From contig NZ_FQVJ01000017.1 of assembly GCF_900129125.1 (NCBI RefSeq), forward strand, positions 1 through 64,000: DNA of 64,000 bases. The letters are read 5' to 3'. A program made the translations under genes and the position numbers. The stretch is from Acidocella aminolytica 101 = DSM 11237 (lineage in GTDB: Bacteria > Pseudomonadota > Alphaproteobacteria > Acetobacterales > Acetobacteraceae). Positions within the stretch are counted from its first letter, which is position 1. Each line of letters starts with the position of its first letter. The notes under the pieces are model-generated. The model was not told the DNA's origin. It searched no databases and worked only from the letters and a program-made list of their open reading frames with translations. Shown here in pieces: positions 50,090-62,405 of the stretch.

Positions 50090-51247
50090 TTTATGAACGC
50101 CTTCAATCCCAATTTTGAAGACAGGAGGAGACGAGGAGAAAGCCCAAGTTCAGAGATGAGTCCAGGCGTGATGCAGTGCCCAAGATTACCGAGCGTGGTT
50201 ATCCGGCAGCGGAGGTGTCTCAGCGCCTCGGCGTCAGTCAGCATTCACGGTGTGCCTGGAAGCGCCAACTGGCGAAGGTGGTGCGGGGCGATACTGGCGA
50301 AGATGCCGAGATCCGTCAGCTACAGCGTGAACTGCCCCAGGTGACCGAGAAGCACGACATTGGAAAAGGCCACCGTGTATTTGGCTCGGGCGGCAAAGTG
50401 AGAAACGCGTTTATTGCCGCGCACCATGACCAGTTCCAGGTTCGATCGATGTGTCGGGGGCTGCATATCCAGCCCAACGGCTTTTGCTTTGCTGAAGAGC
50501 CCGGTGAGCCAGCGCCTAGAAAGACGCTCAATACACGGAGCTAATCCGAAAAGCCTCGAACGACAGAAATAAGGTTTATGGCTATCGAAAGCTGCAGGAT
50601 GACCTCCTGGATCGCGGCGAGACATGCTGTCCAACAGCATTGCCCGATTGACCGAGCTGGAGGGTATCAAGGCGTAAATCGGCTACAAGAGCCGACCGGG
50701 AAGCTATAGTGGTAAGCTGTCTCTGGCAGTCGAAAAACCCTCTCGATCGTCAGTTAGACGTTGCTGCGCCCGAGCAAGCTTGGGTAACGGACATCACCTA
50801 CTTTGGCACTTTGGAAGGTTTTTCTATCTGACCCTCGTGATCGTTCTCTATTTTCGCCGTGTTGTGGATTGGTTGATGCAAAGTCGGTAGACCACCGCTA
50901 GGGTATTGCAAGCGGTGCACTTGGCGGTATGGCGGCGCAAGTCGAAGCACCGAGTGCTGATCCATTCCGATCAGGGCGCGCGGTTCACCAGCATAGACTG
51001 GGCTGCGTTCATCCGGGCTCACAATCTTGAGCACTCGATGGGCCGAAGCGGCAACTGCCATGACAATTTCGTCGCCGAGAGCTTATTCTCGTCGCTAAAG
51101 CGTGAGTGAACTTGGCACGACACCTACAAAATGCGTGGAGAAATCCGGTGGGACGTGTTCGACTAGATCGAGATGTTCTACAATCCCCTGTCCGAGCACG
51201 TCAGGAGCAGAGTGCTGCCACCCGTCGGGTTCGAGAACAATAGTTTT
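50090..51247 (+). pseudogene. IS3-family element, orfA/orfB decayed
   Basis: OrfA is recognisable as S-R-R-D-A-V, then T-E-R-G-Y-P-A-A-E-V-S-Q-R-L-G-V-S-Q-H-S and W-K-R-Q-L-A-K-V (50160-50290). OrfB pieces follow in changing frames: A-F-I-A-A-H-H-D-Q-F-Q-V-R-S-M-C-R (50405), V-Y-G-Y-R-K-L-Q-D-D-L (50580), A-W-V-T-D-I-T-Y (first Asp, near 50780), V-L-I-H-S-D-Q-G-A-R-F-T-S (second Asp, near 50960), N-C-H-D-N-F-V-A-E-S-L-F-S-S-L-K (Glu, near 51060), and a tail to about 51247. Several stops and shifts. Confidence 0.85.
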
Positions 51248-51325
51248 TGAAAGCGAAAGGCGTCTAGAAAATTAGGTGCTATTCAGATCTCGTTTTTAAG
51301 ATGGCTATCACTCAAGTATTGTATT

Positions 51326-51628: not shown

Positions 51629-51865
51629 TTATTCTGTCTTACCTTCAACTTTTCGTCAAATTCGATACCAGGTGGAACCAGAGAGGGTTTTGTAATAAAG
51701 TCTTGCTTTGATGTGAGGGTAGGGGGCGTATTCACAAATGGGCGGTCAACTTATAGGGGGGGGAAGCGCGAGCCTGTCCCAGTACCCTAGTTTTCGGCCT
51801 TGTGGCGTCTCCTTTCAAGGGCTTGGCATGTTTGAATTGCTCCCAGCAGGGGATGAGATGGGCTG

Positions 51866-54034
51866 ATGCAGCTTTCCAAACCGGTGATTGTCATTGTTGA
51901 TGACAGCCCCACGAACAGGCGGATTTATGCTCGTTTGTCCCGGAATCTGGGTTTTGAGGTCCAGGTCAAGACGTTCGAAAATCCCGCACAAGTGCTTGAC
52001 TGGCTTCCAAATAATCGGGTCGATCTGATCATCACTGACTATAAGATGCCGATCATGACCGGGGATAAGCTGGTGACCCATATCCGCGCCTTCGACCCCA
52101 ATATCCCGGTGATTGTCGTGACGGCTTATAATGACCGCAGCTATCGGGTGGCGTGCCTGGATGCAGGCGCCACGGATTTCCTGCTCAGCCCTGTAGATCA
52201 TGTCGAGTTTGTAACCCGCGCGCGCAACCTGCTCAGACTCCGTTCACACCAGCAAATCACCGCGCGCAGGGCGGAAATGCTTGAACGGCGCCTTGCTTCG
52301 GGTATCAACGCGCAAGACTTATTTGTGCTGGATAGCCGCGAGGCATTGGCTCAGGTGATCGATACGGTGCCAGCCATGATCAGCGCAGCGGACCGGGCAG
52401 GCAACTGCATTTTCGTGAATGCGCTGCAGGCCGCGGTTGCTGGTGGGATTCCAGCGGATCTCGTCGGGCAGCCAGTGGAAGCATTGTTGGGGTGGGAACG
52501 CGGCGCCTCAAGCCGGCGGCTCGATCGGCTGGTGCTGGAAACCGGTCAAGCCTTACCATCCAGAGAAGAGGAGGTGTTGACCGATTCTGGTGACACTCAT
52601 GTTTATCTCACCACTAAGGTACCGCTACGCGACAGAAATGGGGTTGCGATCGCGGTTCTCACGACCTCGGTTGATATCACCGAGCGGCGGAATGCTGAAA
52701 GACGCCTGGAATATCTAGCTAGTCATGATCCGCTGACCGAATTGCCCAACCGTGCACTACTGCGTGAGCGAATTCAACGGGAGTTCGCCCGTGGGCGCCG
52801 AGGCGATCAGCATTTTGCGCTACACTTTATTGATCTGGACCGCTTTAAGGCCATTAACGATTCGCAGGGGCATTTGCAGGGCGATAGGCTGCTGCGTCGC
52901 ATAGCGGATATGCTGACTGACGTGGTGAATGAAGGCGATACCGTCGCGCGCATCGGGGGTGATGAGTTCGCCGTGCTGCAAACCAACATTACCGGGCCTG
53001 ACGATATGGCGAGCCTCGCGGGCACCATCATTGCGCGGTTAAATGAGAGTGAGCAGTCCCCAGATCCCCTGAATGTTGGTGCGAGCATCGGTATTTCCAT
53101 CGCGCCGCTGGATGCGCAGGATGCCGAGGCGCTGATGAAGAACTCTGACCAAGCCATGTATGCCGCGAAGCTAGCGGGCGGTAATATGTGGCGTTTTTTT
53201 GCTGCCGAGATGGGAGCCACCTCCGGTGAAGTGGTGAATCTGGAACGCGACCTGCGCAACGCCATCACTCAGCAGGAATTCATTATCAATTATCAGCCGC
53301 AATTTGATCTGCGCAGCGGCGCGCTGTTGGGGGCGGAGGCGCTGCTGCGCTGGAAGCGCCCGGATTTGGGGCTAGTCTACCCTAATCTTTTCCTGAGTCT
53401 TGCTGAGGAAACCGGCCTTATACTGCCAATCAATGAATGGGTCATAAATGAGACCTGTCGTCAGATTTCGACCTGGGAGAAGCAGGGGGTTGAATTGCGG
53501 GTGGGGCTTAATATCTCCTCTATCCAGTTTCGCCGCCGGACGATTTTCCAGACAGTCTCTAATGCGATCGCCGAAGCGGGGATCAATCCGAAATCTCTTG
53601 ATTTGGAACTGACCGAAGGGATTTTGCTGCGCGATGTTGATGACACTATTGCCCAGCTTGACGCCTTGCGCGGCCTCGGGGTTACTTTATCCCTCGATGA
53701 TTTTGGGACCGGCTATTCCTCGCTCAGCTATATCCAGAAATTTCCTCTCGACCGACTGAAGGTAGACCGTTCCTTTATTCAACGATTGGCCGAGAACAAG
53801 AATGACCTCGCTATCGTGCGTACAATCATTGATCTTGGCCACATCCTAAAGCTGAGTGTGCTCGCGGAGGGAGTTGAGACTAGTGCTCAGCTTGCTCTGC
53901 TGCAAGCTGAAGGCTGTGACGAAGGGCAAGGCTTTCTATTAGGCAAGGCGCTGCCGCCTGAGCGTTTTCTAAAAGAGTTTTACTGCCAGGGCACTCAAGT
54001 CTCGCTCCTGAATTCAAAGCGGACGGTAAGATGA
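51866..54034 (+). CDS. Response regulator with PAS-GGDEF-EAL output (c-di-GMP turnover)
   Basis: 722 residues. Receiver domain (7-120) with phospho-acceptor Asp58 in I-I-T-D-Y-K-M-P; PAS (about 160-285); GGDEF intact at 364-368 (R-I-G-G-D-E-F-A); EAL intact at 491-493 (G-A-E-A-L-L-R-W) with D-D-F-G-T-G-Y-S-S-L and K-V-D-R-S-F-I downstream. It can in principle both make and hydrolyse cyclic di-GMP. It overlaps the RpfC-like kinase gene by four bases, so the two are surely a pair; it takes the place that the HD-GYP protein RpfG has in Xanthomonas. 51866 starts at ATG. Confidence 0.93.
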   Translation: MQLSKPVIVIVDDSPTNRRIYARLSRNLGFEVQVKTFENPAQVLDWLPNNRVDLIITDYKMPIMTGDKLVTHIRAFDPNIPVIVVTAYNDRSYRVACLDAGATDFLLSPVDHVEFVTRARNLLRLRSHQQITARRAEMLERRLASGINAQDLFVLDSREALAQVIDTVPAMISAADRAGNCIFVNALQAAVAGGIPADLVGQPVEALLGWERGASSRRLDRLVLETGQALPSREEEVLTDSGDTHVYLTTKVPLRDRNGVAIAVLTTSVDITERRNAERRLEYLASHDPLTELPNRALLRERIQREFARGRRGDQHFALHFIDLDRFKAINDSQGHLQGDRLLRRIADMLTDVVNEGDTVARIGGDEFAVLQTNITGPDDMASLAGTIIARLNESEQSPDPLNVGASIGISIAPLDAQDAEALMKNSDQAMYAAKLAGGNMWRFFAAEMGATSGEVVNLERDLRNAITQQEFIINYQPQFDLRSGALLGAEALLRWKRPDLGLVYPNLFLSLAEETGLILPINEWVINETCRQISTWEKQGVELRVGLNISSIQFRRRTIFQTVSNAIAEAGINPKSLDLELTEGILLRDVDDTIAQLDALRGLGVTLSLDDFGTGYSSLSYIQKFPLDRLKVDRSFIQRLAENKNDLAIVRTIIDLGHILKLSVLAEGVETSAQLALLQAEGCDEGQGFLLGKALPPERFLKEFYCQGTQVSLLNSKRTVR

Positions 54035-56526
54035 GTTGGCTGACACGTGCTGCTAGCCGGATACGGAATGGGGCTCGTATTCTTGCGAAGCGTCTGCGAG
54101 GTCGGCCAGACAGCGAACATGAGATGAGTTTCAATCGCTTGGTTTTTGCGGGGCTCATCGTCCTTATTCTGTTGCCTGGGACAGGCAGCGCCAGTTCTCA
54201 TCTCGCGCTGGCCTGGATGGTTGTTTATTTTGTCCTGGCATTTGGCGGGTTGGCTCACATCATCTGGCGCCCTGGCATTTGCCAGGCGCGCAGAGTTTAC
54301 GCGCTGTTGTTAGATTGCGGCTTTCTTTCCTGGCAGTTGCATCTAGGCGGTGAGCGGGTGGCGTTGTTTTATCCCGTCTATCTTTGGGTCATTTTTGGGA
54401 ATAGTTTTCGGTTCGGCATCAAGTTTCTGCTTCTCGCAGTGCCGGTTGCCACACTCAGCTTTCTGCTGGTCGTGCTCAGTACGCCATTCTGGTTTTCACA
54501 GCCGCATCTTTCCGCTGGACTGCTCATTGGGCTCGTTATCCTGCCGGCCTATGCGGGCACTTTGATCAAGAAGCTTTCTCTGGCCACCCTGGCGGCGGAG
54601 AAAGCCAATAAGGCTAAGAGCTTGTTCTTAGCTAGCGTTAGTCACGAGTTGCGCACGCCTTTAACGGCTATTATCGGCATGAACCAGATGTTGCGCACCA
54701 CCGCGCTCGGTAGCGCCCAGAGGGAGATGGTCGAGACGGTGGACGTCGCGAGCCGCTCCCTGCAGACGCTGATCAACCAATTGCTTGATTTCTCCCGTAT
54801 TGAAGCTGGACAAATGACCAGCACGATCGAGGAATTCGATCTGCTGACCTTGCTGATTGACGTACGGCGCATCGTCGAAAGCCAAGTTCGGGAAAAAAAT
54901 TTGGCATTCACGATTCATGTCACGCCGCGTACGCCGCTTCGTGTAAAGACCAGTCGTCTGCAATTGCAGGAGATATTGGTGAATTTGGTCGGTAATGCCG
55001 TGAAATTCACCGAAGCCGGCAGTGTCGAGATCGCGCTGGACGGCCAGCTTATGGAGGGAAGTGAAGGCGAACTGACCTTGAGGGGAGAGATAGCGGATAC
55101 AGGGATTGGCATTCCGGTTGAAGCGCAGGCCCGTATCTTTGAGAGCTTTACCCAAGGCGATGCCTCGATCCTCAACAAGTTCGGCGGAACCGGCCTGGGG
55201 TTGGCGATCACCCGCCGCCTAGTCGGAATTTTGGGTGGTGATATCACGGTTGAAAGCAAGGTCGGGGAGGGGAGCCTGTTTAGGTTCCATATTAAGGCCC
55301 TCCGCGCCACCGAGGAGGCTTGGCAGCCGCCCGCCGGTAAGGTCGGGCTGCACGTACGTAACCCGCTGAAGAGGTCCCTATTGCGCACAACCCTCACCGC
55401 TATGGGTGTGAAGGTGGAGTTGATGAAGCCGGCCAACGCCGCGTCCGCTGAGGAAAGCGGTGTAAGCATGGTTGTGGAATATTACGCCGATGGCGAGATG
55501 GTGGACATGCCGAGCGGGGGGCTCCCTCGGACAATTCTTATCCAGCCATCCGCAGCGCCGGGGCTACCGGAGCGTGCCATTCGGCAGCGCTGCGTGACTC
55601 TGCTGTCAGACGATTTCTCGGATCAGGAATTGCAGCAGGCACTGCTTATCGCTAGCCGGTTCAGTGTGTCTGAGATGAGCGCCTCTCGGGAGGGTGAGAT
55701 ACTAACGGCGCCAGTGCTGCCGCCTTTGCCAGTCTCTCTCATCAGTCGTGATGTGCTGTTGGTGGATGATAACCGCATTAATCAGCGCGTGTTCACCCGT
55801 ATTCTGGAAGCCGCGGGACATAAGGTGACAGTGGCGGATGACGGTAACCGCGCCATCGATATGCTGGAGCGTGAGGGGGAACGATTTGATATTGTTCTGA
55901 TGGACTTCAATATGCCCGGCATGGACGGGCTGGAAGTGACCAAGTTGTATCGATTGATGTCACTTGGCCAGACACGATTGCCGATTATTGGTCTGACAGC
56001 GGATGCCTTTGCCCAGGCGAACGGGGATTGGCGTAATGCCGATATGGATGACTGCCTAGTGAAGCCTGTGGCACCACAGGATTTGGTGGCGGTAGTTGAA
56101 AAAATGGCCCGTGTGCGTCAGGGGCAATCATCCGCTGCGCCCGTTGAGGCGCGGGCCAAGCAGAACATCCCAGCTTTGGATGAGGCGATCATCGCCAATC
56201 TGCGGCAGTTAGGAGATAGCCAATTCCTGCATGAGCTGCTTTCTGACTTTCTTGCCGATGCGGAGAACCTGATCGATCAGTTGGTCGCTGACGCGGCGCG
56301 CGGCGACAGCCCGGAATTTCGTAACCATGCTCATGCTTTGCGGAGTAGTGCTGCAAATGTCGGCGCTAAGGGGTTGGGGGAGCTATGCACCAACTGGCAC
56401 GGGCTGCGGGGGACTGAACTGAGAGCACAGGCGGCATCGTTTGCCGCCCGTGCGGATGTTGAATTGAAGATGACTAGGCAGGCCGTTATGGCCTTGGGCA
56501 CGATCCGCAGGGTAAATAATCAATGA
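54031..56526 (+). CDS. RpfC-like hybrid sensor histidine kinase
   Basis: 831 residues. N-terminal membrane region (about 35-185) with five or so helices and no large periplasmic domain, as in RpfC; HisKA with S-H-E-L-R-T-P (His205), HATPase with N-A-V-K-F-T-E and T-G-L-G-L-A-I-T; a receiver with L-L-V-D-D-N and Asp625 (L-M-D-F-N-M-P-G); C-terminal Hpt with A-H-A-L-R-S-S (His768). The complete His-Asp-His relay, membrane plan and convergence with rpfF point to DSF sensing. It is coupled to the REC-PAS-GGDEF-EAL gene. Confidence 0.9.
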   Translation: MSWLTRAASRIRNGARILAKRLRGRPDSEHEMSFNRLVFAGLIVLILLPGTGSASSHLALAWMVVYFVLAFGGLAHIIWRPGICQARRVYALLLDCGFLSWQLHLGGERVALFYPVYLWVIFGNSFRFGIKFLLLAVPVATLSFLLVVLSTPFWFSQPHLSAGLLIGLVILPAYAGTLIKKLSLATLAAEKANKAKSLFLASVSHELRTPLTAIIGMNQMLRTTALGSAQREMVETVDVASRSLQTLINQLLDFSRIEAGQMTSTIEEFDLLTLLIDVRRIVESQVREKNLAFTIHVTPRTPLRVKTSRLQLQEILVNLVGNAVKFTEAGSVEIALDGQLMEGSEGELTLRGEIADTGIGIPVEAQARIFESFTQGDASILNKFGGTGLGLAITRRLVGILGGDITVESKVGEGSLFRFHIKALRATEEAWQPPAGKVGLHVRNPLKRSLLRTTLTAMGVKVELMKPANAASAEESGVSMVVEYYADGEMVDMPSGGLPRTILIQPSAAPGLPERAIRQRCVTLLSDDFSDQELQQALLIASRFSVSEMSASREGEILTAPVLPPLPVSLISRDVLLVDDNRINQRVFTRILEAAGHKVTVADDGNRAIDMLEREGERFDIVLMDFNMPGMDGLEVTKLYRLMSLGQTRLPIIGLTADAFAQANGDWRNADMDDCLVKPVAPQDLVAVVEKMARVRQGQSSAAPVEARAKQNIPALDEAIIANLRQLGDSQFLHELLSDFLADAENLIDQLVADAARGDSPEFRNHAHALRSSAANVGAKGLGELCTNWHGLRGTELRAQAASFAARADVELKMTRQAVMALGTIRRVNNQ

Positions 56527-56558
56527 TTTTATACCCCGCTTGTTCGTAGCCTCGGCTA

Positions 56559-57530
56559 TTACTCTGCAGCCATGATTATGGATGGCTGAGGAAGCATCGC
56601 CGCCAAGCGGCGGTCCTGTGCTGCGCAGAGTCTGTCCATCTTACGCAGGTCCGCTTCCGTCAGGTTCAAGGCGGCTTCCGCCCAGATATCGACCACATCG
56701 ATCAACTCCTCCAGCGTCACCGGGTTGACCCTGCGCCGCGCGCGGTAGGTGGACATATGGGCGTTAAATTTCCGGTTATGATGGGAGATATAATCCTGTA
56801 TGGTCTGCTCACCTTGCCCATCTTCCGCCAATACATCGACCACACCGATCTCGAACAACTCTTCAGCTGAATAAATCCGGCCGGAGAGGATCATTTCTTC
56901 CGCGCGCTTGCGGTCGATCCGGCGGGAAAGGAAGCTGTAAGCCCCCATGCCGGGAAACATATTGAACAGGATTTCGGGGAGGCCAAGTTTGGCGCTGCGT
57001 TCCGCGACGATCATGTCGAAGGACAAAGCGTGCTCAAAACCGCCGCCGAGGGCATCACCCTGCACCAACGCCATGGTAATAACAGGAACATCAAAGGCAA
57101 TTGCGTTGCGGTGGATCGCTTTCACTGCAACGTGCCCATAATGGCGCAGTGCCTCTAAATCCCCCTGACGGATGCGCTGTGCGAAATGGCCGAGATCGCC
57201 ACCAAGGTTATAAATGCCCGGAACTGCCGACGCCATCACAAACCATGAAAACGGCATGTCTTCCCGGCGTGGAGACCGGGCGAAGGACGAGGTGATCAAA
57301 TTCTGCATCTCGCCGATATCTTGCATGAGTTCGTGAGTATAAGAGGGCCGCCCCTGCGGCTGCATGAAGCACCAGCAGGCGCTGCTGGGCATATCCAGTT
57401 CCAGCCGGAGATTGTCGAAGCGCCGCGTAAGAAGGTCTTGAAATGAAAGCTGGTATATATCCTTGTTCTGCTGGCAGGAGGAGGTCGCGTTCTGAAGGCT
57501 GGATACAGTGGTAAAATCAACGAAGTTCAT
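56559..57530 (-). CDS. rpfF: DSF synthase, RpfF-type crotonase
   Basis: 323 residues. Crotonase fold; the two catalytic Glu residues needed for acyl-ACP dehydration and thioester hydrolysis are at 166 (G-G-G-F-E-H-A) and 186 (G-L-P-E-I-L-F-N-M-F-P-G-M-G-A), 20 apart as in Xanthomonas RpfF. F-S-W-F-V-M-A-S and the N-terminus also match. The product would be a cis-2-unsaturated fatty acid signal. Convergent with the kinase/regulator pair, the gap being only 32 bases. Upstream, 5' leader with an inverted repeat at 57558-57598. Confidence 0.93.
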   Translation of the reverse strand: MNFVDFTTVSSLQNATSSCQQNKDIYQLSFQDLLTRRFDNLRLELDMPSSACWCFMQPQGRPSYTHELMQDIGEMQNLITSSFARSPRREDMPFSWFVMASAVPGIYNLGGDLGHFAQRIRQGDLEALRHYGHVAVKAIHRNAIAFDVPVITMALVQGDALGGGFEHALSFDMIVAERSAKLGLPEILFNMFPGMGAYSFLSRRIDRKRAEEMILSGRIYSAEELFEIGVVDVLAEDGQGEQTIQDYISHHNRKFNAHMSTYRARRRVNPVTLEELIDVVDIWAEAALNLTEADLRKMDRLCAAQDRRLAAMLPQPSIIMAAE

Positions 57531-57557
57531 TGCATCTCTCCATAGGTTAAGGCTTCT

Positions 57558-57598
57558 CCGTCAGGCATTTTGGTAGGCGCCCCCCTTCCGCCTGACGG
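57558..57598. promoter_or_regulatory. Inverted repeat in the rpfF leader
   Basis: CCGTCAGGC and its exact complement GCCTGACGG, with a 23-base gap, about 28-68 bases upstream of the rpfF ATG. Could be an operator, or an RNA stem in the leader. Inference. Confidence 0.45.
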
Positions 57599-58566
57599 TT
57601 GCATGCAGAATATGACCTGAAATTGGTGGTAGAGCTGAAAAAACTTTGACACTGTGAGGCGGTACCATGGCCTCCTCTAACGAGGTTTTGTCTAAGTATA
57701 TGATATAATTTATAAAAATGAATGGATGAGGTGAAGCGGTTCTGCTTGTGGTTTTGTCTAACCTCGGCTTCGGCCATTTTTTCGACAAGCCGGTTGGAGT
57801 GAGCATGGGGAGTGACCAGAGCCGTCGCGGGTTCGGGGGCGTTAGTCTTTCTATACGCCGACGGCTGACTTACGCTTTGTCTTTAATATTGTCGCATGGC
57901 AGCGATTTGTCTCAAAACAAAGATTTTCTCCCGAATAACCAGGAAGAAGGGCTGTTGAGCATTGCTGGCTTGAGCTAGCGGCGCACCTTTTAAGGCTCCC
58001 GACCGGAGGCGTGCGATAATAAGGTGCCACATTCCAGCCAACTGGAGTTTTATATGGCGATTTTGTGCTGGCTGCAGAGGAGGTCCAATAACACGGCTAG
58101 CCTTCTTGGTTGCCCATGCCGCGTGTTGTTTTACGACGGTCATTCAATTCTTATGCGAATATATCGATTCGTCGCCTGTTTGTGTGGTACGCGTATCGCC
58201 AGGGAGACTGGAGTTTCGGTGATGAAAGTTCTTTCAATCCCGCCGAAATTGTAGTGGCAGCGGAAACGCCCACATATAGTATTCTTCTTTTAAAGGCAGA
58301 TGCTACTGTGGTTCGCTGGGCGGCGAGACGGAAGGACCTATAATGCTGTTCGCATTGCGGAAGTTGTCAGGCTTTTTTCTGTGAACCGGACGGATGGCAT
58401 AACGCAAGCACGGTGAACGGCGCGCGTATTTAGCGCTTTTATTGCACCAAGACCGATGGAGTCAGGCCCACCAAAATTGGAAAGCGCCGTTGCCAAAGTT
58501 TTTGTTGAGGTGCGGGTCGTTGCCGCTTGAGTGACGTTCCCAGCGCTGTCCAACAGTTCCAGGGGC
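57599..58566. other. Long intergenic stretch between rpfF and the MFS gene
   Basis: Nearly 970 bases without a gene I can support. AT-rich at 57690-57730 (probable rpfF promoter). Several short open frames exist on both strands, but none has a recognisable domain or a convincing ribosome site. One of 78 codons starts at 58574, in ATGAATGA overlap with the MFS stop; it could be translated with it but I cannot support a function. Confidence 0.4.
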
Positions 58567-60832: not shown

Positions 60833-61421
60833 ATGGTGAAGGGGCCTGCTGTTGCTATCATCCTGGATGCTGCTCAGAAAGCAGCCCTGACTGCGCTGGT
60901 CCGCAAGCGTGGCCGGCGCAAACGGGCGGTGGGCACACGCTCACCAATTATGGTGTTCGATCAGCCGAACCAGCGCTGGGCCTGGGTTTCGTGTCGGACG
61001 CGCTGAACAATGGACGGAGCTTCCGCGGTTTGACGGTGGTGGATGACTCTATGCGCGAATACCTGGCGCTGGTGGCCGACACCTCTCTGTCAGGAGAAAG
61101 GCTCGGTCGCGAACTCAACCAGATCGGCGAACGCCCAGCCATCAGCTGATCCAGAAGGTCTTTGTCGATGCTCATACGTGAATCTCCTATTCAAGTCGTT
61201 ACCACGTCAGCGCACAAAATTCAGGATAGTCCCGGTAAGCCGCAGCAGAATGCGGTTGTAGATAGCTTCAACGGTCGATTCCGTGATGAATGCCTCAACG
61301 TGTCCCTATTGAGCAACCTGGGTCACGCCTGGTCTGTCATCGAGGCGACTATAATGCTGTCAGACCACACATCAGCCTTGGCGGCATGACGCCAGAGGCT
61401 TTGGTTCGACACGCAAGCTAG
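60833..61421 (+). pseudogene. IS630-like start fused to an IS3-family orfB remnant
   Basis: ATG at 60833 opens M-V-K-G-P-A-V-A-I-I-L-D-A-A-Q-K-A-A-L-T-A-L, like an IS630 transposase N-terminus. At about 60895 it runs into IS3 OrfB: K-R-G-R-R-K-R-A-V-G-T-R-S-P, P-N-Q-R-W, then in other frames D-F-V-S-D-A-L-N-N-G-R-S-F-R-G-L-T-V-V-D-D (first Asp), L-V-A-D-T-S-L-S-G-E-R, P-G-K-P-Q-Q-N-A-V-V-D-S-F-N-G-R-F-R-D-E-C-L-N, and the typical end G-M-T-P-E-A-L-V-R-H-A-S at 61421. The middle catalytic region is deleted. The two parts look joined by illegitimate recombination. Confidence 0.7.
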
Positions 61422-61489
61422 GCATATATCAATCCACGGTCCTAACTTAAAGATGAGGGCATGTTGGGGGACGGGGTAATGCCGCCTAC

Positions 61490-61756
61490 CTACGATTTCA
61501 GAAAGCCTCCTTCTACCTTACCGAATAAGCAGCACAAGCTTGCTGGCCTGCCGCTCCACTGCACATCGATGCCGCTAGGGGGGCCACGCCATCTCTCCTG
61601 GCGGAGGTTCTCATTTTCCCGCCTCTGGCAGAGCCACCTTGTCAGCGGTGATATGCCGATACCAAGATCCTCGGCTATCGCCCGGCGAGTGTACCCGCTC
61701 GTGCGGACCAGCCGAACCGCCCCATCTTCAACGTCCCGGATATACCGTTGCGCCAT
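61490..61756 (-). pseudogene. IS3-type OrfA remnant
   Basis: ATG at 61756: M-A-Q-R-Y-I-R-D-V-E-D-G-A-V-R-L-V-R-T-S-G-Y-T-R-R-A-I-A-E-D-L-G-I-G-I-S-P-L-T-R-W-L, the helix-turn-helix of an IS3 OrfA, then unrelated sequence from about residue 58. Same type as the stub at 27634-27708. Confidence 0.65.
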
Positions 61757-62405
61757 GAGGGAGTTGCCCTTCTATACAATAAGGGGCTCCACTTTCGTGA
61801 AGCAAGTCCGCTTGGAATATGCTAACAAAAAACGCGAATTTGCACAGCCTCGGTCGTCTCCCGCCAGTACGACCGGCGCCCGTTGATCGTAGTTAATCTT
61901 ATTTCCTGCTCCAAAGCTGCCAGACCGTTGTCGGTCTATCTTGTCGATATAATTAGATGGCACGGTTCCTCTGGCGGATGTGCCGATAAATTTAATCCTA
62001 TTCTGCGTAGTCGCTAAGCATCTTTCTTGGTGTTTGTGTATCGCAACAAAAAGCTTTAGAGCTGACGCTGGCTAGCTGCTGTGAAATGCCTTGAGGTTTG
62101 CGGAGGCGAGCAGGTTGACAGCTATGTACATTATCCTGAGAGGCACAACCACTACAGTTGCAAATTTGCGCGACACTCTTCGGCGTTTTTGCAAAATAAA
62201 CTCAGCAAGAAAAATAAAACCATAAACTTCAGTAAGTTATTTTTGGCACGATGGTTGCTCATCCCCCCCATGTTCATCTTGCGATGGGCACGGGAAGATC
62301 CCCGCCATGACCGGTCCAATAAAACCCGGCGCGGAGGGGAGACGCAAATCACACGGCTCAAGGAATGAGCGGTTTTTTGATGTCTAATGTTCAAGGGAGT
62401 TGTTG
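61757..62405. other. Long gap upstream of the APC permease
   Basis: 650 bases with no supported gene. 61757-61800 may be the end of the IS3 remnant. The last 100 bases form the permease leader, with AGGGAG seven bases before the ATG at 62406. No riboswitch or attenuator could be recognised. Confidence 0.35.

Follow-up and report, generated by a model that had tools for sequence, protein, structure and literature searches.

The window analysed here, a stretch of 64,000 nucleotides of Acidocella aminolytica 101 = DSM 11237, lies on a contig of 70,478 bases (C57) of a 3.96 Mb genome and carries, between positions 51866 and 57530, three open reading frames which, with a probability of roughly two in three, form a quorum-sensing cassette of the diffusible signal factor (DSF) family, composed of an RpfF signal synthase, an RpfC-type relay kinase and an RpfG-like regulator through which cyclic di-GMP (c-di-GMP) would be lowered. 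According to the proposed mechanism, RpfF would make a cis-2-unsaturated fatty acid and the membrane-embedded RpfC-type kinase would sense this fatty-acid signal by direct binding. A phosphorelay would then run from His205 to Asp625 and Hpt His768 of the kinase, and from there to Asp58 of the regulator. Phosphorylation of the regulator would shift the turnover of c-di-GMP, most likely by a net increase of the EAL phosphodiesterase activity, and a high signal would result in low c-di-GMP; the PAS and GGDEF domains may serve as further inputs. The features of the locus are the following:

51866-54034, plus strand: REC-PAS-GGDEF-EAL response regulator, 722 residues (open reading frame, Pfam, catalytic residues)
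52037-52039, plus strand: codon of Asp58, predicted phospho-acceptor of the receiver (residue check; Asp in 65 of 65 homologues)
52955-52969, plus strand: GGDEF motif, residues 364-368, intact, with the I-site Arg absent at -9 (residue counts)
53336-53344, plus strand: EAL motif, residues 491-493, in a protein with the full EAL catalytic set (residue counts)
54031-54034, plus strand: four-base overlap of the regulator stop and the kinase start (open reading frames)
54031-56526, plus strand: RpfC-type hybrid histidine kinase, 831 residues (open reading frame, Pfam, residues)
54103-54126, plus strand: sensor motif RPDSEHEM by the first hydrophobic segment, with Met32 at the position of Gln22 of Xanthomonas campestris pv. 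campestris (Xcc) (alignment; roles from passages of PMC5391125)
56559-57530, minus strand: rpfF-type DSF synthase, 323 residues, with Glu166 and Glu186, convergent with the kinase gene (open reading frame, searches, tree)
51864-57650, no strand: extent of the putative three-gene cassette (nucleotide similarity to genome G008 and Acidocella facilis)

Proteins of the locus

The gene of the regulator precedes that of the kinase, with which it would be co-transcribed. According to Pfam, the regulator consists of Response_reg (residues 8-118), PAS_4 (166-275), GGDEF (285-440) and EAL (461-694), the kinase consists of HisKA (195-260), HATPase_c (309-423), Response_reg (575-689) and Hpt (735-791) domains preceded by an input domain which is hydrophobic by hydropathy, and the third protein is matched by ECH_1. 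A preliminary description of the stretch had reported the convergence of rpfF on the kinase gene, the four-base overlap, a linked regulator ending in PAS-GGDEF-EAL instead of HD-GYP, the kinase residues His205, Asp625 and Hpt His768, and both catalytic Glu residues of RpfF at a distance of 20; all of these were recovered from the strands of the frames, the Pfam domains and the recomputed residues. The three genes are under purifying selection, with dN/dS values of 0.08-0.13 in comparisons with two relatives; since dS is close to 1 or more, these values are rough. Taken together with the conserved gene order described below, these values make the locus more than a chance assemblage.

The identity of the synthase is supported by its catalytic residues and by its relatives. 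The two catalytic positions, Glu166 and Glu186, are Glu in 128 and 126 of 129 RpfF rows, respectively, the remainder being Asp. Among solved chains, four RpfF-type structures are matched at 3e-50 to 1.4e-46, two of which are named RpfF (3m6m, 6dgn) and two crotonase or putative enoyl-CoA hydratase (7zq7, 5fus), and the next hydratase follows at 8.9e-16. The broad NCBIfam model PRK08788 is matched with 371.9 bits (cut-off 177). A tree separates 96 RpfF rows from 9 hydratase rows by a branch with a support of 100*, this tree and that of the kinases being quick trees with one kind of support value. The protein from the window falls among the RpfFs, and its reading as an ordinary hydratase was therefore rejected.

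The kinase resembles RpfC both in its input domain, which aligns with those of seven kinases located beside HD-GYP regulators with scores of 63-116 bits, and in its relay residues. Neither a failure of the N-terminus to align with RpfC nor a grouping of RpfF with the enoyl-CoA hydratases, the two results named beforehand as fatal to the preliminary description, was found. A search of solved structures with the kinase input domain as query returned no match. In an alignment of 101 kinases, the His of HisKA occurs in all 101 sequences, and the Asp of REC and the His of Hpt in 100 each, the missing ones corresponding to gaps. In loci of the Inquilinus type, one or two extra proteins, similar to the RpfC input domain and to the beginning of HisKA, occur between the regulator and the kinase (L107, 13686-14591 and 14848-15678; L109, 13737-15098 and 14612-15454; L113, 4142-5053), in the place where Xanthomonas has rpfH.

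With respect to the regulator, Asp58 is present in 65 of 65 homologues and the affinities of the receiver were compared by bit scores. The window receiver scores 100-272 bits with the receivers of GGDEF-EAL partners (its own sequence included), 108-135 bits with those of histidine kinase (HK) partners and 77.8-103 bits with those of seven HD-GYP partners, against at most 60.8 bits with 96 receivers of the kinases and at most 59.7 bits with 49 of 50 other receivers, a set in which truncated copies of these kinases, taken from shorter loci, are included. The fiftieth, at 115 bits, belongs to an rpf-linked REC-PAS-HisKA_2 regulator of genome G384, a second copy of the one occurring in locus L078. 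The PAS domain gives a median of 127 bits with GGDEF-EAL partners and of 84 bits with HK partners. From these scores, the regulator reads best as an RpfG-type receiver, followed by a PAS domain shared with the HK partners and linked to another output. A tree of the receivers, built on 133 columns, has 97 inner branches, of which 47 are left open; among the seven HD-GYP receivers, one falls with the HK partners and the other six are left unplaced.

Some partners depart from this organization. Those of L111 (13277-14041), L118 (13241-14002) and L119 (13416-14276), all from relatives of Roseomonas, are REC-PAS proteins of 253-286 residues devoid of any output domain, and a PAS-HWE histidine kinase is encoded by the next gene upstream of the partner in L118. 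The partner of L130 is a REC-PAS-GAF-PAS protein. In L088 (9647-15304, genome G167), a GGDEF-EAL partner with a degenerate GGDEF motif, RSDEF, stands beside a kinase of the Gln type discussed below; its REC groups with the HK-partner receivers in the tree although its best BLAST matches are mixed, and its PAS finds its best BLAST matches among GGDEF-EAL partners, so that L088 possibly results from a domain swap or a re-pairing.

Distribution and possible mobility of the locus

To date, the same arrangement has been identified in many genomes. A scan by RpfF alignment, with one genome per species, confirmed at least 570 loci, and the best 80 by similarity to the window RpfF comprise 59 loci with a REC-PAS-GGDEF-EAL regulator and an RpfC-type kinase, a share inflated by this very ranking, together with 5 REC-PAS-HK loci, 5 in which only REC-PAS was matched, 1 with REC only, 1 with a kinase lacking a partner within the stretch and 9 with neither. 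Six of the 80 come from genomes present in the other samples and were excluded when distinct loci were counted; these amount to 65 with a GGDEF-EAL partner beside RpfC, mostly alphaproteobacterial, 17 with an HK partner and 7 with an HD-GYP partner. Partner types were called by BLAST to the domains of the window and by an HD-GYP motif, ten proteins being checked with Pfam, including one HD-GYP regulator and one RpfR-like protein. The partner is located upstream on the kinase strand in 65/65 GGDEF-EAL loci (at a gap of at most 3.5 kb), 16/17 HK loci and 7/7 HD-GYP loci. The rpfF gene is convergent in 60/65 GGDEF-EAL loci (four have another orientation and in one it lies off the contig), and in 17/17 and 7/7 of the HK and HD-GYP loci, respectively.

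In an even sample of the class, RpfF occurs in 24 of 385 genomes (E <= 1e-45), of which 15 have a partner of the REC-PAS-HK type, 2 a GGDEF-EAL partner (the window and G167), 1 a REC-PAS-HisKA_2 protein without RpfC in the stretch, and 6 none that was recognised, in three of these because the contig ends. The HK output is thus commoner than GGDEF-EAL in this sample (15/24 against 2/24). A sample of the phylum yielded 63 genomes with RpfF, and the 26 neighbourhoods examined contain 3 GGDEF-EAL proteins with REC, 7 HD-GYP and 5 RpfR-like proteins, 4 further GGDEF-EAL neighbours lacking both REC and RpfC, 5 kinases for which no partner was recognised, 1 other hybrid kinase and, in one case, none of these. 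The arrangement is a widespread alphaproteobacterial alternative to the Xanthomonas wiring, not an oddity of one genome; its restriction to a single genome, implied by the preliminary description, was rejected in view of the 65 distinct loci. No description of an RpfC-linked REC-PAS-GGDEF-EAL regulator was found among the listed matches in the open-licence literature, subscription papers being mostly outside that search. RpfC-RpfG pairs have been reported by KEGG orthology in alpha- and betaproteobacteria and in Nitrospira, in passages of PMC8895600 that do not give the partner domains.

Other neighbourhoods of rpfF were encountered in the course of these searches. In L222 (9240-12124, genome G703), rpfF precedes, in the same orientation, the gene of a MerR-PAS-GGDEF-EAL protein, in which a DNA-binding domain is fused to c-di-GMP domains. 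In three genomes (L207, L211 and L212, family f70), rpfF stands beside GGDEF-EAL proteins of about 800 residues without RpfC, those of L207 and L211 carrying PAS_7. Genome G269 encodes two RpfF-like proteins (L087, L092), neither of them with RpfC inside the examined stretch. The record titles of L109, L122 and L145 (Mycobacterium, Terriglobia and Burkholderiales) conflict with their placement in the RpfF and kinase trees, and these are probably mislabelled or mixed assemblies.

The limits of the locus were examined by comparing window positions 40001-64000 with the rpf-locus stretches of G008, the nearest row of the kinase tree and a member of the same genus, and of Acidocella facilis, the nearest named row of that tree, a placement which points to Acidocella as the genus. 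The nucleotide similarity to both starts at 51864, two bases ahead of the start codon of the regulator, and ends just past rpfF, at 57650 for G008 and 57548 for A. facilis. A search of 41 genomes covered the flanks at 46.0-51.8 kb and 57.7-62.0 kb. In G008, which is 80% complete, the transporter-like genes of the left flank occur on contig C36 and the rpf locus on C114, and the right flank has no match in this incomplete assembly. Beyond the genus, each of the three proteins has its nearest relatives in Ancylobacter and Kaistia, which belong to another order. Together, the limits of similarity, the location of the flanks elsewhere and these distant relatives suggest that the three genes move as a unit, presumably by horizontal transfer.

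Scans of the sequence for promoters and terminators returned no more than shuffles did (3 against 4.4 and 4 against 7.0, respectively). Between an SDR gene and the cassette, positions 50176-51250 resemble, when read by eye, the degenerate remains of an IS3-type transposase. On the other side, positions 60898-61809 contain short stretches repeated at 80-94% identity on several further contigs of this genome, which are probably also remnants of insertion sequences. The G+C content is 0.56-0.66 over the first 36 kb of the window and 0.50-0.56 thereafter. A decaying or orphan locus, deprived of any signalling function in this genome, would agree with the insertion-sequence-like remains adjoining it and with a patchy occurrence in the genus, but the three frames are open, the catalytic residues are present and the dN/dS values are low, which makes such a decay very improbable.

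Ligand and output of the proposed relay

Several observations weigh against a DSF cassette that lowers c-di-GMP. The specific NCBIfam model for RpfF, NF053515, was missed, with 206 bits against a cut-off of 550. The locus is patchy in the genus, RpfF being present at 74% identity or more in five of 37 genomes (G000, G005, G008, G020 and G036), some of the 37 being incomplete. The usual Lys of the receiver is replaced by Ser in 60 of the 65 GGDEF-EAL partners, by Thr in four and by Ala in one, and phospho-activation may therefore not be standard; HD-GYP partners keep this Lys in six of seven cases, the other one having Arg. The window kinase is devoid of the Gln needed by the RpfC of Xcc. Finally, the GGDEF motif and the Mg-binding Asp of the window regulator are intact and the I-site Arg is missing, so that a synthase activity is possible.

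The sensor residue deserves particular attention. According to passages of PMC5391125, the DSF response of Xcc RpfC requires Arg15, Asp17, Ser18, Glu19 and Gln22; Q22A is one of three replacements leaving 22.9-32.9% of the response, and Q22E and Q22N likewise lower it. The window kinase keeps four of these five residues (Arg, Asp, Ser and Glu), with Met32 in place of Gln22. The position is occupied by Met, Ile or Leu in 64/65 kinases with GGDEF-EAL partners and in 5/5 of those with REC-PAS-only matches, and by Gln in 16/17 kinases with an HK partner, 7/7 with HD-GYP, 1/1 with REC only and 5/6 without partner, the sixth showing a gap. Part of this kinase clade has lost Asp17 and Ser18 as well. 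In the tree of the 101 kinases, built with the sensor column left in, this residue changes once and the three partner types change four times, for a possible minimum of two. Because of two exceptions, L088 with its GGDEF-EAL partner and Gln kinase, and L070 (G282) with an HK partner on the other strand and a Met kinase, the residue tracks the kinase clade, not strictly the partner.

It is possible that this residue is tied to the choice of ligand and that the clade prefers a different one. The relay would then operate as described, but with a kinase whose ligand, made by RpfF, would be some other lipid or a DSF relative with a different chain length. The loss of Gln22 beside GGDEF-EAL partners, with a single change on the tree, the lowered response of the Gln22 replacements in Xcc and the loss of Asp17 and Ser18 in part of the clade favour such another ligand. 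On the other hand, the rest of the motif is retained in the window, the pattern may simply reflect the descent of one kinase clade, and section 8 of PMC5391125 makes no mention of Met at this position. Moreover, PA1396 of Pseudomonas aeruginosa is described in passages of PMC6536496 as sensing DSF by helices IV-V, much of its N-terminal region being dispensable. A change of ligand is a serious possibility, though less likely than not; it is compatible with the preferred explanation, and the confidences attached to the two do not sum to one. The sensor residue of the kinase is the point most worth an experiment.

As regards the sign of the response, the nine catalytic positions of the EAL domain (Glu, Asn, Glu, Glu, Asp, Asp, Lys, Glu and Gln) are intact in 65/65 partners; 58 of these have a canonical GGDEF motif and 7 an altered one, and 24 possess the RxxD motif of the I-site. 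Since EAL is invariant while GGDEF varies, constraint would be stronger on the phosphodiesterase than on the synthase function. On signal, c-di-GMP is degraded by RpfG as well as by RpfR, according to passages of PMC13220807, and by analogy the signal would be expected to lower c-di-GMP with the same sign here. Phosphorylation might conversely activate the GGDEF half, the signal then raising c-di-GMP and favouring attachment. The motif, intact in the window protein and canonical in most homologues, would allow it, and the lack of the I-site Arg means that product inhibition is not expected; set against substitutions confined to GGDEF (7/65, with 0/65 for EAL) and against the sign of both known systems, such a reversal is unlikely. 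The different sign envisaged by the preliminary description is disfavoured on the same grounds.

Relation to known DSF systems

The relationship with RpfR, another PAS-GGDEF-EAL protein encoded beside rpfF, was examined by trees. In a tree of 93 GGDEF-EAL rows, the partners occupy one side of a branch supported at 94 and RpfR another (100*), with RpfR united at 97* with four further GGDEF-EAL proteins from the genus of the window. A smaller tree, computed under a richer model, split the partners when the search was unconstrained, but a constraint keeping them as one clade did not worsen the fit (p-AU 0.80) and raised the likelihood; a joint clade of partners and RpfR was not rejected (p-AU 0.50), and separate origins are therefore not claimed. 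That the partner simply is RpfR was rejected on account of its REC at 8-118, the accompanying RpfC-type kinase and its separate grouping in the 93-row tree. Its descent from an RpfR-type protein, which gained a receiver and came under RpfC, agrees with the common PAS-GGDEF-EAL architecture beside rpfF and with the joint clade; it is quite unlikely, given a PAS domain of another model (PAS_4, against PAS_9 in the single RpfR-like protein that was scanned), the position of RpfR in the larger tree and the REC-PAS part common to the HK partners, as seen from the PAS medians. The preliminary description holds for an RpfF/RpfC locus with a PAS-GGDEF-EAL regulator; its view of a mixed form of the two DSF designs is not supported, given a receiver which scores as RpfG-like and a GGDEF-EAL part which stands apart from RpfR in the 93-row tree, with the reserve of the p-AU value, and neither are the singularity and the different sign.

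In passages of two reviews (PMC4504480, PMC13220807), DSF is linked to c-di-GMP by one of two routes, RpfC/RpfG or RpfR. A tentative proposal, with somewhat less than an even chance, would recognize a third, alphaproteobacterial class of DSF-type systems: a mobile cassette of three genes, whose own clade of RpfC lacks the DSF-essential Gln and hence answers to a different fatty-acid signal, and whose bifunctional GGDEF-EAL regulator has an RpfG-like chassis with outputs exchanged in evolution (HD-GYP, histidine kinase, HisKA_2, GGDEF-EAL, GAF-PAS or none). If true, a third route (RpfC to GGDEF-EAL) and a fourth (RpfC to histidine kinase) would spread DSF signalling over much of the Alphaproteobacteria, and it would become testable which receptor residues set the choice of ligand and how one phosphorelay couples to interchangeable outputs.

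Among known systems, the locus resembles the RpfF/RpfC/RpfG system of Xanthomonas by an RpfF with both catalytic Glu, a kinase of HisKA-HATPase-REC-Hpt organization, a regulator gene preceding that of the kinase on its strand, a convergent rpfF, and a receiver scoring nearer to the RpfG type than to nearly all unrelated receivers. It differs from it by its PAS-GGDEF-EAL instead of HD-GYP output, by the Ser replacing the usual Lys of the receiver and by the Met at the Gln22 position of the kinase. With the RpfF/RpfR system of Burkholderia and Cronobacter it shares a PAS-GGDEF-EAL neighbour of rpfF, but RpfR, whose PAS domain itself binds the signal according to passages of PMC4504480, has neither the REC before the PAS nor the RpfC-type kinase found here. 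A further likeness in organization is offered by the 17 alphaproteobacterial rpfF/RpfC/REC-PAS-HK loci, which have the same REC-PAS front end, an RpfC-type kinase and, in 16 of 17, the same order, but end in a HisKA-HATPase output and possess kinases that keep Gln22 in 16 of 17 cases.

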